Shown in pieces: positions 42,402-59,876 of a stretch of 64,000 bases of DNA. The position numbers were made by a program, and so were the translations under genes. Origin of the DNA: Advenella kashmirensis WT001 (GTDB taxonomy: Bacteria; Pseudomonadota; Gammaproteobacteria; Burkholderiales; Burkholderiaceae_B). The notes beneath the pieces are model-generated. The model ran no database searches. It was given only the letters and a program-made list of their open reading frames with translations, and was not told the origin of the DNA. Position 1 is the stretch's first letter, and every line of letters begins with the position of its first letter. The stretch lies in contig NC_017964.1 of NCBI RefSeq assembly GCF_000219915.2, positions 3,038,001 through 3,102,000 on the forward strand, in the 5' to 3' direction.

Positions 42402-43192
42402 ATGCGTATAGCCATTTCCGGAGCCAGCGGCCGTATGGGCCGCATGCTTATCGAAGCCGTTCTGGCGCGCCCCGAACTCACGCTGGCTGCGGCCCTGGAT
42501 CATGCCGGCAGCAGCCATCTTGGGGAGGACGCCGGCGCGTTTCTGGGCAAGGCTACCGGCGTGCAACTGGGCAGTGATCTGGCAGCGCTCAAAGACTGTG
42601 ATTGCCTGATCGATTTCACCCGTCCCGAAGGCACCCTGGCGCATGTCCAGCTTGCGTACAGCATAAGGTAAAAATGGTTATCGGCACTACCGGTTTTGAT
42701 GCAGCAGGCCAGGCAGCGATCGCCTCGGCCGCCGAGCACATTGCCATCGTGTTTGCCCCGAATATGAGTATTGGCGTCAACGCGACGCTGCGCCTACTTG
42801 AGCAGGCTGCAAAAATGCTCAACAGCGGCTATGACGTGGAAGTATACGAGGCACATCATAAGCACAAAGTAGACGCACCGTCCGGCACGGCGCTGATCAT
42901 GGGCGAAACCGTCGCCAACGCCTGGGGCAAAAAGCTGGAAGATATTGCCGACTGGAGCCGACACGGCCACACGGGCGCGCGCAAGGACGGCAATATCGGC
43001 TTTTCCGTGGTGCGTGGTGGTGATGTGATCGGTGATCACACCGTGATGTTTCTGGGTACCGGAGAGCGTATTGAAATTACGCACAAATCCTCCAGCCGCA
43101 GCACTTACGCCCAGGGCAGCGTGCGGGCTGCGCTGTTTTTACAGGACAAGCCAGCAGGCCTGTTTTCCATGCAAGATGTGATTGGCGGCTAA
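42402..43192 (+). CDS. dapB: 4-hydroxy-tetrahydrodipicolinate reductase (frameshifted)
   Basis: Lysine/diaminopimelate pathway enzyme. N-terminal NAD(P) motif [28 protein letters not shown] near residue 78, [23 protein letters not shown] near 125, and the catalytic segment [20 protein letters not shown] near residue 153; also [17 protein letters not shown]. One G is missing near 42650 (CAGCTTGC for CAGGCTTGC); repair gives [18 protein letters not shown]. Expected length about 264 residues. It lies 135 bp after bamE and before a terminator. Confidence 0.95.
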
Positions 43193-43243
43193 CACCCAGT
43201 GAGGGCTGAGGCCTGTTGATTTGTCCGATTGACACGAAAGGAG

Positions 43244-43268
43244 CGGCTGCCATCAGGCAGCCGTTTTT
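43244..43268 (+). terminator. rho-independent terminator after dapB
   Basis: CGGCTGCC, ATCA loop, GGCAGCCG, then TTTTT. Confidence 0.85.
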
Positions 43269-43318
43269 GCATTTGAAAGAATCGCCACAGACATGATGAG
43301 AATGTCAGCAGCAACAAT

Positions 43319-43348
43319 GACAGTCGTGATAACGACAGTTGTGATAGC
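43319..43348. repeat. 15-bp imperfect tandem repeat
   Basis: GACAGTCGTGATAAC followed directly by GACAGTTGTGATAGC (13 of 15 identical), in the short gap before the murB stop. No function assigned. Confidence 0.6.
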
Positions 43349-43363
43349 GGGCGCTTTGATGAA

Positions 43364-44379
43364 TCAATCGAACAACACCGGCTCGCGCTCCAGCGTCACG
43401 TCAAATTTCTGCTGCGTGGAAGCGACTACCGCATCGGCCAGCGCCAGGACATCTGTTGCCGTTGCGCCGCCATGATTGACAAGCACCAGCGCCTGGCGTT
43501 GATGCATGCCCACAGGCCCAAGCGAGCGCCCCTTCCAGCCACATTGCTCGATCATCCAGCCGGCCGCCAGCTTATAGCTACCATCAGCTTGTGGATAGGA
43601 CACGAGCGCAGGATAGTCTGTTTTCAATTGTGATTGCTTCGCAGCAGGCACGATCGGGTTCTTGAAAAAAGAACCGGCGTTGCCGATTTTGGCCGGATCA
43701 GGCAACTTGGCCTGCCGAATTCTGCAAACCGCATCAAAAATCTTTTGTGGCGTGGCGTTGCGCGCAAGCTCAGGATCGTTTTTGAGGTCAGGATACGAGA
43801 TAACCGGCACCCATTGTTTGGGCAGACGAAAGCGCACCGCCGTGATCAAATAACCTTGTCCTGCCGGTTTTTTGAAAAGACTGTCGCGATAAGAGAACGC
43901 ACACTCCAGCGCGCTAAACAAACGGGGCTGGCCTTGCGTCAGATCCCAGGTGTGTACACTGTCGATCCGATCCATGACCTCGACGCCATAAGCGCCGATA
44001 TTCTGTACCGGGCACGCCCCACCGTACCGGGAATGAGTGCAAGATTCTCCAGCCCATACCAGCCATTGCGAATACACGTAGCAACAAAGTCGTGCCACAC
44101 TTCTCCTCCCGCCGCTTCCACAATAAAGGCTTCAGGCGTCTCTTCGATCAGCCGGATTCCTTTGAGTAAATTGTGCAGCACGGGTCGCGACAGGTGCTCA
44201 CGCAATATCAGGTTGCTGCCACCGCCCAACACGTAGATCAGGCCGCCCGCCATCTGCCGCCATTGCGTGACCATGGGCAACTGCTGTTCGCTTTCGAGTC
44301 GTAAATAATGGGCGGCATGCGAGACCAGCCCCAATGTATTGAGCCCTGTCAGATCCTGCTTAGTCTCATCCCGCATCAA
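43364..44379 (-). CDS. murB: UDP-N-acetylenolpyruvoylglucosamine reductase MurB (frameshifted)
   Basis: FAD enzyme of peptidoglycan precursor synthesis. FAD-binding first half with YVLGGGSNLILRE near residue 49 and WYGLENLALIPGTVG near 107. After one missing base near 44011 the other frame continues APVQNIGAYGVEVMDRIDSVH, FSYRDSLFKK (catalytic region), IGNAGSFFKNPIV with the conserved serine, and a C-terminal GWKGRSLGPVGMHQRQALVLVN. Expected length about 338 residues. It is the E. coli-like type I enzyme by the CAFSYRDS segment. Essential in most bacteria, so the break is probably an error. Confidence 0.94.
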
Positions 44380-44676: not shown

Positions 44677-44752
44677 GCGGGAATAGCTCAGTTGGTAGAG
44701 CGCAACCTTGCCAAGGTTGAGGTCGCGAGTTCGAGCCTCGTTTCCCGCTCCA
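44677..44752 (+). tRNA. tRNA-Gly (anticodon GCC)
   Basis: 76 nt with encoded CCA. Acceptor stem GCGGGAA pairs with TTCCCGC, the D-arm contains AGCTCAGTTGGTAGAGC, the anticodon loop TTGCCAA gives anticodon GCC (44710-44712), and the T-loop is GTTCGAGCC. A terminator follows directly. Its last 20 nt are copied at 46738-46758. Confidence 0.97.
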
Positions 44753-44756
44753 GAAT
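44736..44756. repeat. att-like direct repeat, left copy (tRNA-Gly 3' end)
   Basis: CCTCGTTTCCC-N3-CCAGAAT, covering the 3' end of the tRNA and the next 4 nt. The right copy at 46738-46758 matches in 18 of 21 positions, and both copies are followed by a related terminator hairpin. Confidence 0.65.
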
Positions 44757-44761
44757 TTAAG

Positions 44762-44793
44762 AAAAAGCCCAAACTTCGGTTTGGGCTTTTTTT
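44762..44793 (+). terminator. terminator after tRNA-Gly
   Basis: AAAAAGCCCAAAC, TTCG loop, GTTTGGGCTTTTTTT. Also positioned to stop the convergent hipA transcript. Confidence 0.85.
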
Positions 44794-44876
44794 CGTCTTG
44801 CCTATCCAATCAAAAATATATGAAAGTAAAAATTTCAGTTGACAGGACTGTTGTTTAATCGTCTGGATAAACGAAC

Positions 44877-46220
44877 TTACCGCTTACGCGGCCGCCCCAA
44901 CAACTCCGACCGCCCAACGACCACTCGCTCACTTTCGGGCTTTTCAGGCTCTGAAAATCCTGCATGTGCAATCGCGTCACTCAGCCCTCTGAAAGCAACA
45001 GTAGTCTTCGGACTGTGCAATGACGCCATCCCATCGTTCCAGGCATACACCATCTGCTTGGCAACGGTATGCCAGCGCGGCTCATTCCTGGCCGCCTCGA
45101 TTACCTCTTGCCCAACCTCCACTGCAGATTCGCATAAGCGCTCCACCATCTCTGCATATAGTTTTGGGGCAATACCGAGCCTGGCCTTGAAAAATCGCTC
45201 CAGCGTTTTGCCCACCACCCAGGTTTGCCGACCATCCACAGGCAAGCCCGGCGGATTATCCGCATAACGTGGATAAGCCTGTGTAGTAACCAAGTCGTAA
45301 ATAGGTGTGTAAGCCACGTCATTTAAACCGGTGTAATACAGCGCGATGTTCTTTGCATGGCAATCGGCATTGCGCACCACGTAGTTGGCCAGCAAGTGCC
45401 AGCCGAACTGCGCCAGTTGAGCTCCAGTGACTGCAGCAGGCACATAGACCCTGGTAGCATTCAATACGCGCTCATTCGTTGTTGCATATTTCTCATGAGG
45501 CGGCAGTCCCAGCAAGCCGCAGGCATCTTCAACCCCATGCGTGACAGCACCCTGCGTATCCACGTCGAATCGATCCACAACTAGCACGCGCCCATCGTCC
45601 GACATGCGCGTCTTGGCCACTGGTACAACATTTAGTTTCTCCAGTACCCGCATAGTGTAAAACTCGTTGAACCCGAGGTAGGGAGTGCTATCATCCGATC
45701 CCTTGATGATGTGGCGACTGGTACGCAACGTTGATTTGCCCACCACATGCACAGTGGTTTCCGTATCTTCGGGCGCAATGAACTTTGGCATCATCCCGGA
45801 AATGGATGAACGAGCATAGCGACGCACCAGGCTCGCGAAATGCGCCGTGGTGTTCTCCGCTTTGAGCAAGGCCTCAATCCGCAATGGCTCCATGTCTGCG
45901 CCAAGCGCCCCGCCTTCAGGCGTGACGGTGACGCGTCCAATCCCCATTCCACCAACCACCGCCAGCAGCGAAAGATCCGTGCCATCGAGCAACGGCCCGA
46001 ATTCTTCGCGAATGATGCTCAGCAGATAGCCCTCGGGCAGGTTCTGACGAAAGAAAGGATGCAGATCACGCGGCCAGCACCAGGGCTCCAAGCGCACCGG
46101 CATCGTCAGGCTGACAAAATCAGCAGGGTCGGTGTCAGGCAGATAACTCAAGACATACTCGTCACGCTCCCGATAGAGCTTGGCGACTGCTCGCCCGCAT
46201 ACATGCACGTCGAGTTTCAT
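44877..46220 (-). CDS. hipA: type II toxin HipA family Ser/Thr kinase
   Basis: Toxin kinase of the HipBA family; E. coli HipA phosphorylates GltX and induces dormancy. 447 residues. N-terminal HipA domain with VRLEPWCWPRDLHPFFRQNLPEGYLL near residue 45, the ATP-loop equivalent SSISGMMPKFIAPEDTETT near residue 117, and STLRTSRHIIKGSDDS. The kinase core has the catalytic NADCHAKNIALYYTG near residue 285 and the metal-binding YTPIYDLVTT near 308. The frame is intact. The hipB stop overlaps its start by 4 bp. The pair fills a small islet between the two tRNA-Gly 3'-end repeats. Confidence 0.93.
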   Translation of the reverse strand: MKLDVHVCGRAVAKLYRERDEYVLSYLPDTDPADFVSLTMPVRLEPWCWPRDLHPFFRQNLPEGYLLSIIREEFGPLLDGTDLSLLAVVGGMGIGRVTVTPEGGALGADMEPLRIEALLKAENTTAHFASLVRRYARSSISGMMPKFIAPEDTETTVHVVGKSTLRTSRHIIKGSDDSTPYLGFNEFYTMRVLEKLNVVPVAKTRMSDDGRVLVVDRFDVDTQGAVTHGVEDACGLLGLPPHEKYATTNERVLNATRVYVPAAVTGAQLAQFGWHLLANYVVRNADCHAKNIALYYTGLNDVAYTPIYDLVTTQAYPRYADNPPGLPVDGRQTWVVGKTLERFFKARLGIAPKLYAEMVERLCESAVEVGQEVIEAARNEPRWHTVAKQMVYAWNDGMASLHSPKTTVAFRGLSDAIAHAGFSEPEKPESERVVVGRSELLGRPRKR

Positions 46221-46480
46221 GCCTCATCACCCCGTCGCTGCTCGTCCAGAATATCTTCAATGGTTCGGACATGCCCCCGCTTGATCGGCTTGAGGTCATA
46301 GCCCGCGGCTTCCAGCAATCGTAGCAAAACAGAGACACTCATATCGCCTTTGGCAAGCGTTTCCATACGAGCAACCGTTGTACGCGAGACGCCAGCACGT
46401 TGCGCCAGCGTTTCCTGGCTCAAACGCTCCGCCTTGCGCACCCTACGCAGCAGGTCCGCAACGTCAGCTAATGTTGTCAC
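46217..46480 (-). CDS. hipB: antitoxin HipB-like XRE family regulator
   Basis: 87-residue helix-turn-helix protein: VADLLRRVRKAERLSQETLAQRAGVSRTTVARMETLAKGDMSVSVLLRLLEAAGYDL is a classical XRE/Cro fold and matches HipB antitoxins, which bind operators and neutralise HipA. The C-terminal 20 residues (KPIKRGHVRTIEDILDEQRRG) would contact the toxin. The frame is intact and translationally coupled to hipA. Repeated motifs upstream (46491-46662) are probable autoregulatory operators. Confidence 0.9.
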   Translation of the reverse strand: MTTLADVADLLRRVRKAERLSQETLAQRAGVSRTTVARMETLAKGDMSVSVLLRLLEAAGYDLKPIKRGHVRTIEDILDEQRRGDEA

Positions 46481-46490
46481 TGTATCCCCC

Positions 46491-46662
46491 AGGCGTCAAA
46501 ATTAAGTTCCGATCCTAAAATGTAGCCCAAGAGACACATCATTGCAAGCGATCCACCAAATTAACAATTCCTCTATCGATAAAGAATAATTTATAAATAT
46601 TTTTGTAGCCTATAGGCGTCAAATAACTCAGTATTTACGTATTTGTAGCCCGAATGCTACAA
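46491..46662. promoter_or_regulatory. hipBA upstream region with repeated operator-like motifs
   Basis: A bipartite element AGGCGTCAAA-N20-TGTAGCCC occurs twice with identical spacing, at 46491-46528 and 46614-46651. The second copy's TGTAGC is half of the palindrome TTGTAGC-N6-GCTACAA (46643-46662). A third TGTAGCC at 46604 leads into the palindrome GCCTATAGGC. The 180 bp are strongly A/T-rich compared with the flanks and hold no other gene. Confidence 0.55.
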
Positions 46663-46737
46663 TAATTGCCAAGCGCAAAGGCCATTCAAATCAAGACCAC
46701 ACAGCCAGGGCCAAATGAATCGACAGCCCAAGGTGAT

Positions 46738-46758
46738 CCTCGTTTCCCATCCCAGAAT
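46738..46758. repeat. att-like direct repeat, right copy
   Basis: CCTCGTTTCCC-N3-CCAGAAT, the copy of the tRNA-Gly 3' end about 2.0 kb from the tRNA. It lacks the rest of the tRNA. Typical of the distal boundary of an element inserted at a tRNA gene. Confidence 0.65.
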
Positions 46759-46760
46759 GC

Positions 46761-46789
46761 AAAAACCCAAACCGAAGTTTGGGTTTTTT
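46761..46789. terminator. terminator-like hairpin at the islet's right edge
   Basis: AAAAACCCAAAC, CGAA loop, GTTTGGGTTTTTT. Its stem resembles the tRNA-Gly terminator (CCCAAAC/GTTTGGG), so the duplication includes the terminator. Confidence 0.8.
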
Positions 46790-46847: not shown

Positions 46848-48200
46848 TTATCCGCCCTTGCGCAGTGTCAGCGGCTTAAGCTTGCGATTGATCCACAACG
46901 CCAGCACCGTGCATGCGGCCCCGGACAGCAGGTAGAGACTGACAGCGACCAGGCCGAAATGTATCGACAAGCCTAGCGCCACCAGGGGAGCAAAGGCGGC
47001 GCCCAGTAACCACGCCAGATCTGACGTTAATGCCGCACCCGTATAACGGAAACGCGGCGAAAAATTGGCAGTCACGGTTCCAGAGGACTGACCATAGGAC
47101 AAGCCAAGCAAGGCAAAACCGATCAGGATAAACGCGTCCTGCCCCATCGCGTCGCCATTTAACAACAACGGCGCAAAACACCCGAAAATCGCGATGAGAA
47201 TGGCCAGGGCAGTCAGTGTTGTACGGCGTCCGATGCGATCGGCAATAATGCCAGATGTAATAGTAGCCGCCATGGCGACAGCGGCGCCAATAACCTGAAT
47301 GAAAAGCACCTCATTAATGGATTGAGTGGCCGTCAGGGCAATCCAGGATAGCGGAAAAATGGTCACAATATGAAACAAGGCATAGCTTGCCAGCGCGGCA
47401 AACGCGCCGATGAACAGATTGTATCCCTGCCCGGCAAGCATTTCCCATGTACCGATAGGCTCCAGTTCCCCCTCTTCCAGCAACTTCGTGTATTGCTCTG
47501 TCAGGACAAGCCGTAAGCGCGCAAACAGTGCCACCACGTTAATGGCAAAGGCCACGAAAAACGGATAGCGCCAGCCCCAGCCGAGAAAATCTTCGGCTGA
47601 CAAGGTGGAATGCAGAAACAGGAACAAGGAGCTAGCCACCAAAAAGCCCACGGGGGCGCCCAGTTGACCGAGCATGGAATACCAACCCCGGCGCTGCTTG
47701 GGAGCGTTCAGGGCGAGCAGCGAAGGCAAGCCATCCCATGAGCCGCCGAACGCGACCCCCTGCAGACTGCGAAACAGGACCAACAGGGCAATCGACAACG
47801 CGCCAAACGATTCGTAGGTCGGTAAAAATGCAATACCGGCCGTTGCAGTGCCAAGCAGAAATAGCGCCAGAGTAAGCTTGGTTCCCCTTCCCCATCGTCG
47901 CTGAATGCTCATGAACAGGGCGGTACCGAATGGACGGGTAATGAAGGCGACGGCAAAAATGCTGAATGAATAGAGCGTACCGGTCAGCGTGTCGACAAAC
48001 GGAAAGAACAGGGCGGGAAAGACCAGTACCGATGCGAGACCGTAGACAAAAAAGTCAAAATACTCGGATGCGCGACCAATGACAACACCAATGGCTATTT
48101 CGCCGGCAGCAACCGGACCGTGGCCAGCCATTTGTTGTCTGGCATCATTTTCCATCGTACGCGAGGAGGGCTCAGTACTTGTCTGGTCAAAACTCGACAT
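46848..48200 (-). CDS. MFS transporter of the metabolite:H+ symporter (MHS) family
   Basis: Inner-membrane proton symporter for organic acids or similar metabolites; 450 residues with 12 predicted membrane segments. The MHS pattern is clear: ASEYFDFFVYGLASVLVFPALFFP near residue 44, AFITRPFGTALFMSIQRRWGRG near residue 84, and SLQGVAFGGSWDGLPSLLALNAPKQRRGWY near residue 143; the second-half loop reads GIIADRIGRRTTL. The C-terminal tail is short and basic. The frame is intact. Divergent from the cyo operon, a neighbourhood seen in related genera. Confidence 0.9.
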   Translation of the reverse strand: MSSFDQTSTEPSSRTMENDARQQMAGHGPVAAGEIAIGVVIGRASEYFDFFVYGLASVLVFPALFFPFVDTLTGTLYSFSIFAVAFITRPFGTALFMSIQRRWGRGTKLTLALFLLGTATAGIAFLPTYESFGALSIALLVLFRSLQGVAFGGSWDGLPSLLALNAPKQRRGWYSMLGQLGAPVGFLVASSLFLFLHSTLSAEDFLGWGWRYPFFVAFAINVVALFARLRLVLTEQYTKLLEEGELEPIGTWEMLAGQGYNLFIGAFAALASYALFHIVTIFPLSWIALTATQSINEVLFIQVIGAAVAMAATITSGIIADRIGRRTTLTALAILIAIFGCFAPLLLNGDAMGQDAFILIGFALLGLSYGQSSGTVTANFSPRFRYTGAALTSDLAWLLGAAFAPLVALGLSIHFGLVAVSLYLLSGAACTVLALWINRKLKPLTLRKGG

Positions 48201-58521: not shown

Positions 58522-59876
58522 TCACCCCGCCAGCCTGTCAGCCGAAGCCTGCAGACCCTGCAGAATACTGTCAGCCAGCGACTCGGAAAATGACTTGGGT
58601 AGCCCGGCCCGCACAGCCCGCACGACCGCGGGCGTTCGCGCCACAAGATCATCTACAACTGCCTGTGCGCTGTGCCCGTCAGGCGTGACTACCCCATAAC
58701 GCTCGCCCACATTCAACCAGTGCCGTCGCTCAATTGTTCGCATCAGGTAATGCGCGTTTTTTGAGCGCACGGCCATCGCCATTTTCACCCTGAAAGGCGA
58801 GAGCTTGCCCTTGCCTTCTCCCAGAAAAGGCAGAACGGAAAGAATGTCATATAGCGGCGTGAGCTCGTAGCCTCCACCAGGCCTGAGAAAAACGCTGAAA
58901 TTTTTCGCTTGACCATCGGGCGCCCACAACATCCAGAAAAGTATTTGCGACTGGAAAAAAGTGCGTTTATCACGTTCAGAATAAAGAGAGGTGTCAAGTA
59001 GCCTCATGATGCGATCTACGCCAGGTCCACCATCAGCCTCATATTTCAAATGGGGTGGGGTCGCCGTGATCTGGCAAAAATCTTCCTGTGGCAGCCGGGC
59101 CAGCCACGGTTTTTGCTCTCCATGAGCAATCCAGGCACGATCGAATCGCGTTACGGACAATACCTTCATGTCTTCGAACTGCAGCGGTTCGCATTCGGCT
59201 ACCGGTAGCCCGTAGGCGCGCAGGATCTGGGCACAAAGCCATTCGTTTTCGACAGACTCGCTCAAGTCCAGCTTCATATTCCCGACCAGCCCCATTGGCA
59301 ACTTGAAAATATGCGTCGTGGGCGTCGCGCCTTGCGGTCGGCACCAGCGACCCTGGAAATACAACAGGGCCGTTTTTTCCTGCGCGCCGGCAATGGAGAT
59401 GCGCAAGTCTTGTGCATCGGAACCGGCTGCGCGGCCAAGGGGCCGGGATTGAGCGTATCGCGCAACAAGCGGGCGACTTCGGCCTCGCTAAGTGGTGTGG
59501 CATGAACAGCGTTTACCGCCTCTGGCTGCATGCCTTCGGGAAGCAGTTGCAAGGCGCCCACGCAATCGCGGCCCACCTGCATCAGCAAGTCGAACGCATC
59601 GGTGGAACCTGTCTGGTATCGACGCGCCACCCGTTGGCGAATTTCTTTGCTGTCAGGTAACAGATTTTCGAAATAGGCGCGTACGGCGTCGCCACGATGT
59701 GGCGGATTGCCAGGTGCAAAAGGAAGAGACAGGGAAAGCGCCCGGCCACGCGTCGAGGCAACCCAGCTGTCTGCATATTGCAGAACCTCGCCATCGCCTG
59801 GCCGGGTATGCCAGGTCCCCACATAGTCTGCGTTCATCCATAGCCCGAGTGTACGGGCATGAGAGCGTCTGCCCAT
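58522..59876 (-). CDS. hipA: type II toxin HipA family kinase, second copy (frameshifted)
   Basis: Second HipA-like kinase, about 452 residues. N-terminal domain with LGLWMNADYVGTW and YFENLLPDSKEIRQRVARRY near residue 72; ATP-loop ISIAGAQEKTALLYFQGRW near 156; conserved NEWLCAQILRAYGLPVAECE; the catalytic segment reads WMLWAPDGQAKNFSVFL, keeping the Asp and Asn; and LTPLYDILSVLP holds the metal-binding Asp. One base is missing near 59418; repair gives VPDAQDLRISIAGAQEK. It differs clearly from the first HipA of this window (a different subfamily). The hipB gene is 4 bp upstream. Confidence 0.88.

Follow-up and report, generated by a model that had tools for sequence, protein, structure and literature searches.

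A toxin-antitoxin islet at the 3' end of tRNA-Gly

In silico analyses of a 64,000-nt stretch of the Advenella kashmirensis WT001 genome (contig NC_017964.1, positions 3,038,001 to 3,102,000; hereafter the window, with positions counted from its first nucleotide) indicate that a 2.0-kb islet carrying the toxin-antitoxin (TA) genes hipA and hipB, located at the 3' end of a tRNA-Gly(gcc) gene, is very probably a cis-mobilizable element (CIME), namely a decayed, integrase-less residue, bounded by attachment sites, of a P4/ICEclc-type island of which hipBA is the last cargo. This reading draws on the two repeats bounding the islet and on a comparison of genomes (G numbers) and loci (L numbers), which shows relatives with an arm next to the repeat, an empty site, a scar and integrases at this tRNA end and, in the congener G001, the left end of an island.

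The 21-mer CCTCGTTTCCCGCTCCAGAAT (44736-44756), composed of the last 17 nt of tRNA-Gly plus 4 nt, recurs at 46738-46758 with 18 of 21 positions identical and a spacing of 2,002 bases, as part of a direct repeat (44733-44763 and 46735-46765) with 77% identity over 31 nt. A scan of the 4,423,879-base genome with up to three mismatches returned these two copies on the forward strand and none on the reverse; the reversed pattern, which served as a control, gave no forward and one reverse match. With no third site in the 4.42-Mb genome, a chance origin of the repeat was rejected. The similarity continues into related hairpin terminators that follow both copies (Table 1). Between the repeats, open reading frames (ORFs) and Pfam searches revealed hipA, hipB and a low-G+C control stretch (40% in 46481-46734 versus 55% window-wide) and no other gene; integrase, conjugation and mobilization genes are thus absent from this interval, as are an IntB13-type integrase and a conjugation core. 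The Phage_integrase domain (PF00589) has nine matches in the genome but none in the window, the nearest on the contig being ca. 490 kb away, in a search that a fragment lacking the catalytic domain would escape, and no P4-integrase match occurs within 9 kb downstream of the tRNA-Gly, for which a single match was found in this genome at E<=1e-15 among the matches listed. An earlier note, made from the letters of the window, had described the pair of repeats, the paired terminators, the restricted content and the lack of an integrase, all of which are borne out here.

We infer the following order of events. The attP of the element would have recombined with the final ~18 nt of tRNA-Gly, placing hipBA at the right end of the insertion. 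An arm of ~120 nt would have separated hipBA from attR, and the terminator of the tRNA itself would have been pushed beyond attR. The integrase, the remaining cargo and the left end would have been lost later. What stayed would be hipBA with the control region and a right end undergoing decay, and neutralisation of the HipA kinase by HipB (addiction) may have delayed the disappearance of this residue.

Empty, filled and scarred versions of the site

The comparison covered 73 tRNA-Gly stretches, a non-random set taken from the matches listed and from hipBA loci and including two stretches from one genome; murB lies upstream in 63 of them, and the 61 of these with at least 1.5 kb downstream are assessable sites. 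At the dapB-murB-tRNA-Gly locus, a conserved 207-aa ORF, for which no Pfam match was found, lies beyond the site and serves as a landmark. The distance from the tRNA to the start of its match is 121 nt in G125 and 88 nt in G011, with just a terminator between, so that both sites are empty. In G110, which belongs to another genus and is the record of locus L082, the ORF match begins at 2,300 nt, after 2.2 kb containing hipBA, the arm and the repeat. In G146, from the same genus as G125, it begins at 380 nt, after a 280-bp scar: the 296 nt from the tRNA end through the repeat begin with a left end that is island-like, of the integrase-bearing kind, by eye and has one short match to G003 (E 4e-4); then come the 3' end of hipA, matching G003 at 70% over 60 nt (E 2e-5), the arm and a repeat carrying 2 mismatches in its 16 nt.

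These empty, scarred and full states of the same locus support insertion at the tRNA end followed by loss of the integrase, as do the occurrence of the module at a different tRNA-Gly locus in Brenneria and the P4-type integrases found at this tRNA end (see below). The integrase-mediated layout proposed in the earlier note is thereby strengthened, and the comparison of the interval that it suggested has recovered empty, scarred and filled sites in relatives but no clean empty site in Advenella. What looked like an odd repeat becomes one of several states of a single chromosomal site, which is empty in some genomes and elsewhere holds the full islet, the antitoxin after loss of the toxin, or a bare scar.

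When the arm of G146 was used as a DNA query against 268 genomes of the family, five matched (G146, G110, G100, G109 and G589), the match in G589 being 24 nt long and chance-like. This search undercounts old islets, because it missed both the window's own genome and G001.

Integrases and island ends at the same tRNA

P4-type integrase sequences occur within 4 kb of the tRNA end at seven of the 61 assessable sites. Those of G102 and G129 possess the arm-binding, middle and catalytic domains, and those of G015, G070, G081, G098 and G127 are fragments. The DNA past the distal repeat of G001 resembles left ends that precede integrases (E 8e-18 to G101, 6e-17 to G070, 6e-14 to G061:C58 and 3e-9 to G129), a resemblance also found on the proximal side of G003 (E 4e-10 to G070). 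Both island ends are present in G146 (the left by eye and one short match), the distal end is clear in L081, L082 and L083, and G003 has the proximal one only. CIMEs move by accretion with an element that uses the same site, and tandem arrangements occur in G070, L273 and G001.

In L273 (Pollutimonas bauzanensis), two copies of the attachment site enclose 16.6 kb with hipBA, TacAT-like genes, metabolic genes and a fragment of an integrase; an AbiEi-like ORF between the copies and integrase-like DNA after the second copy were seen by eye. Separately, L220, L252, L258, L259 and L261 have inserts of 1.2-3.6 kb between full tRNA-Gly genes, a duplication unlike the 18-nt kind.

The hipBA module in wider relatives

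One genome per species was scanned for relatives of the module, which gave 178 confirmed stretches; the best 80 were used, with flanks that are short at contig ends. A tRNA-Gly(gcc) gene lies in the fetched flank of five of the 80 loci (L082, L085, L086, L088 and L089), all within the nine closest. The 16-nt tRNA end, with at most one mismatch, was found 571-622 nt ahead of the hipA start in four of 27 loci (L081, L082, L083 and L089), in the same orientation and place as in the window, ~300 nt beyond hipB; L088 has it farther out with three mismatches, and the other 22 loci have no 16-nt tRNA end beyond hipB at that distance. The stretch formed by arm and repeat is alike among L081, L082 and L083 (73-78%) and is common to G001 (62-73%). 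The arm is clear in these four and in G146, and L089 has the repeat alone. In L081 and L083 the distal repeat reads GTCTCGTTTCCCGCTCCA, an exact 18/18 match to the attachment site of ICEclc as printed in PMC10732049 and PMC9960961. In Brenneria, the module is located at a tRNA-Gly with no adjoining match to dapB or murB and with two copies of the repeat past the tRNA. hipA itself was detected at E<=1e-120 in three of 399 sampled genomes of the order, that of the window counted, which indicates a patchy distribution of hipBA.

The site in other Advenella genomes

As regards a conservation of the arrangement in all relatives, which the earlier note held to speak against insertion, an intact close hipA was found in one of nine congeners, G003 (83%), which by contig position corresponds to L086 (A. 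kashmirensis W13003). In G001, hipB, the control region and the arm are present, together with a repeat that has one mismatch in 16, but hipA has no match. In G007 the hipB match is limited to the first 41 residues; a control region and an end resembling the repeat (74% over 61 nt) accompany it, and an AbiEii/AbiEi pair and a Phd/YefM antitoxin lie between the tRNA and this remnant. G006 and G009 have neither hipB nor the transporter of the window within 6.8-7.6 kb of the tRNA, where other genes are located, and in the small genomes G002, G004, G005 and G008 tRNA-Gly occurs twice, the second gene being preceded by tRNA-Cys, with no hipBA match there. This distribution suggests that the islet was present before four of the ten genomes diverged or was acquired more than once, and that it is decaying.

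Points that weigh against a decayed island, and other possible origins

Several observations do not fit easily with a residue of a tRNA-targeted island. The proximal side of the window has a host-type terminator and no clean attL or recognisable island left end: its hairpin is 94.6% similar over 37 nt to that of G011, 93.5% over 31 nt to that of the empty G125 and 89% over 37 nt to that of the filled G110, and this side resembles the plain terminators of the insert-free G011 and G125 and those of G006, G001 and G009. The missing left end might be explained by conversion, with the distal copy as donor, or by a second tRNA-Gly, since lost, as the site of insertion. The distal repeat agrees with the ICEclc site at just 13 of 18 positions. 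No search recovered the arm assigned to the window: BLAST with the right ends of relatives matched just the repeat and terminator of the window, the G146 arm used as a DNA query did not match it, and the top pairwise alignment with G001, whose score of 60.5 (shuffles <=22) comes from the transporter flank, placed 46666-46736 elsewhere. Among close HipA relatives, no repeat at up to two mismatches occurs in the flanks fetched for L084 (87%) and L087 (85%), and L085 (86%) has none beyond hipB, a whole tRNA-Gly occurring 1.5 kb past hipB in its place. Within Advenella, no site is cleanly empty, those of G006 and G009 being occupied by other genes. Furthermore, a DNA tree of hipBA neither joined nor separated the window and G003. 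An independent insertion in G003 is an attractive possibility, given a one-base difference in the repeat part of its tRNA and a proximal side that looks like a left end, but a clade of the two is not rejected (approximately unbiased test, p 0.454). Finally, the addiction part of the scenario faces a mixed pattern of loss: hipB without hipA in G001 is what addiction predicts, but in G070, G091 and G098 pieces of hipA persist with no hipB match.

Other origins were weighed against the same data. The distal repeat could be a remnant of a second ancestral tRNA-Gly, as the earlier note had also considered; it would be the 3' part of that gene with its own terminator, hipBA having inserted between tandem tRNA-Gly genes. 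Such a history would account for host-type terminators at both sides, and small inserts between full tRNA-Gly copies do exist (G139, G142, G121, G158 and G084), as does a Gly...Cys-Gly order in the four small-genome congeners. It is nonetheless improbable: the distal copy of relatives begins at the 18-nt site and is preceded by a conserved arm rather than by a tRNA, the copy accompanies hipBA elsewhere (L083 and Brenneria), and in five of five cases the 80 nt before the repeat resemble the 5' part of the tRNA no more than shuffled sequence does (in the closest case, G146, 46 of 500 shuffles reach the score). A capture of hipBA beside the tRNA by some other recombination, with a coincidental repeat, would suit the proximal junction of the window, which lies past the terminator and not at the tRNA end, but is scarcely credible given that the only two 21-mer matches are both at the islet and that L081, L082, L083 and L089 have the repeat at the identical position, which already contradicts it.

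The earlier note had left open whether the islet is a remnant of a larger island or a minimal passenger mobilised in trans. As a passenger, the islet and both sites would form a non-autonomous unit, excised by integrases that other islands at this tRNA-Gly encode. Integrases of a suitable kind are present at the site, and small islets of high identity with an absent or broken integrase and a second repeat occur across genera (AbiE in G061:C58, PIN in G065:C27). In the window, the synonymous divergence of hipA from its nearest kin (ca. 0.8-1.2) speaks against recent transfer and the attachment site is badly decayed. The evidence leans towards a remnant, and we regard the passenger alternative as rather unlikely.

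The hipBA genes and their control region

Positions of the genes and sites discussed here are given in Table 1. HipA is intact and combines a kinase domain with the N-terminal subdomain, and it is encoded in one operon with a helix-turn-helix (HTH) antitoxin; matches to the NCBIfam models of the two proteins fall short of the cut-offs. The stretches that align with NADxHxKN and YDL of the Shewanella oneidensis protein (4pu3/4pu5) are retained, and we take them to have a catalytic role. The dN/dS of hipA against five relatives (0.075-0.085) indicates purifying selection on the pair along the compared branches. Upstream of hipB, TGTAKC half-sites occur five times in 255 bp, as against 0.11 expected from the window's own rate, and three to five times in the equivalent region of each of seven relatives examined; they may represent HipB operators.

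Table 1. Features of the tRNA-Gly islet and its borders, in window coordinates.
Feature	Position	Strand	Remarks
tRNA-Gly(gcc), integration target	44677..44752	+	Sole tRNA reported by ARAGORN in the window
Proximal attachment-site copy (putative), the final 18 nt of the tRNA	44735..44752	+	17/18 to the ICEclc repeat of PMC10732049, counted by eye
Proximal terminator hairpin	44762..44790	+	Host type rather than island left end
hipA, 447 aa, HipA kinase-type toxin	44877..46220	-	Intact ORF; PF07804 4.5e-36, PF13657 2.4e-13
hipB, 87 aa, HTH antitoxin	46217..46480	-	HTH match; 4-nt overlap with hipA
A/T-rich control region, five TGTAKC half-sites	46481..46665	.	Presumed HipB operators
Presumed decayed right arm	46666..46736	.	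From position and multiple alignment with the arms of relatives only
Distal attachment-site copy (putative), decayed	46737..46754	+	13/18 to the ICEclc repeat, by eye
Distal terminator hairpin	46761..46789	+	Related to the proximal hairpin; weakly similar to plain terminators of tRNA-Gly (E 4e-4 to 0.008); interpreted as the displaced native terminator of tRNA-Gly
Metabolite/H+ symporter-like flanking gene, beyond the islet	46848..48200	-	NCBIfam match below model cut-off

A second HipA-type gene was observed in the window (58522-59876, minus strand) as two overlapping frames, one with PF07804 and the other with PF13657. Its counterpart in the congener G009 (L168:10910-12531) is unbroken and encodes 451 aa next to an 86-aa HTH partner.

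Other toxin-antitoxin pairs at the tRNA-Gly end

Genes or pieces of four kinds of TA systems were found within 6 kb of the tRNA end at 14 of the 61 sites, 11 of them at 70% identity or more. This count leaves out the hipBA scar of G146 and includes four circular matches, since the queries were taken from the same set of sites (window, G070, G015 and G033). Besides the queries, hipBA or pieces of it were found in G001, G003, G007, G110 and G098, AbiE in G061:C58 (92-98% to G070, with AbiEii in two frames) and in G165, PIN in G075 and in G065:C27 (96% to G015), and TacAT-like genes in L273 and G165 (85-95%), with a 27-residue piece in G158. A second repeat bounds hipBA, AbiE (G070 and G061:C58) and PIN (G015 and G065:C27); AbiE of G165, PIN of G075 and the TacAT-like genes of L273 and G165 either have no second repeat within 7 kb or lie in a longer array, and no short islet with a second repeat was seen for TacAT-like pairs among the compared sites. 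In L232 (G165), the AbiE pair adjoins the TacAT-like pair, within 3.5 kb of the tRNA-Gly end.

AbiEii was detected at E<=1e-60 in 12 of 151 genomes, with copies of at least 91% identity in G070 (the query), G022, G165 and G109, the latter in two pieces and belonging to the same record as G061. It is located downstream of tRNA-Gly in G070, G165 and G109 and 3.3 kb away on the 5' side of tRNA-Gly in G022; for the other eight genomes (39-82%) no tRNA-Gly was nearby among the matches listed. PIN occurs in seven of the 151 genomes and, once the query G015 is excluded, in four of six (G118, G089, G075 and G102) it lies 0.5-14 kb downstream of tRNA-Gly; in G111 it does not, and for G159 the matches listed give no tRNA-Gly position.

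We tentatively suggest that tRNA-Gly islands may erode across the family down to their addiction module, HipBA, AbiE and Phd/PIN being residues of 2-3 kb bounded by attachment sites and TacAT-like pairs occurring at the same tRNA end, some perhaps still moved by the integrases of neighbours. If so, erosion would halt at the TA pair and tRNA ends would accumulate such pairs, which could help explain TA pairs beside tRNA genes. Such a fixed site makes it possible to ask whether TA pairs are over-represented among island residues through resistance to deletion, a matter long argued and seldom testable.

Relation to known elements

CIMEs of 1.2-13 kb and microCIMEs of 130-220 bp are described for streptococci in PMC7563491. 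Like them, the islet has no recombination or conjugation genes, its 2.0 kb being inside the range, and the 280-bp scar of G146 is slightly larger than a microCIME. Putative attachment repeats lie at its ends, the distal one at 13 of 18 positions and the tRNA end with no island left end. Unlike the streptococcal elements, the islet occupies a P4/ICEclc-type site in Burkholderiales, carries TA cargo only and has lost its left end. With the ICEclc family, whose integrase is IntB13, as presented in PMC10732049, PMC9960961 and PMC6563109, it shares the 3' end of tRNA-Gly(gcc) as a target, relatives of the window having the 18-bp repeat (L081 and L083) and a P4-type integrase adjoining the tRNA. In contrast to ICEclc, the islet lacks integrase, relaxase and secretion genes and is 2 kb long rather than 105 kb.

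A HipA/HipB pair on a tRNA-targeted island is also reported for GI21/CGI48 of Shewanella putrefaciens, where, according to PMC8978831, hipAB was shown to prevent loss of the island. That island has an integrase and an excisionase, a hipA-hipB order and a HipB of 152 aa, whereas in the window hipB comes first, encodes 87 aa and is accompanied by no integrase; hipBA might retain the islet in the same manner. The genes also resemble the type II HipBA systems of S. oneidensis (4pu3) and Escherichia coli (2wiu) in having the Couple_hipA and HipA_C domains and an overlapping upstream HTH antitoxin, but the HipA of the window is distant (E 6e-11 to 4pu3 and 2e-3 to the E. coli protein). No report of this islet, or of TA-only islets at tRNA-Gly in Alcaligenaceae, was recognised from titles and abstract openings in the top-ranked open-licence literature, a survey that would miss a lower-ranked paper.

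Flanking regions

The symporter-like neighbour of the islet also adjoins the site in the congeners G001, G003 and G007. On the other side, murB is in two frames and dapB apparently so (from the ORF listing alone) at 42402-44379, while congeners give single uninterrupted murB and dapB matches where covered; the splits in the window would reflect sequencing errors or decay. Finally, tRNA-Gly and tRNA-Cys are 39-68 nt apart in 11 of the 61 family sites, but 41.8 kb apart in the genome of the window (G000 C1 3082677-3124609) and 23-43 kb apart in G001, G003, G006, G007 and G009, the Advenella interval having been inserted or rearranged; in the genome of the window it contains what we take to be terminal oxidase genes.

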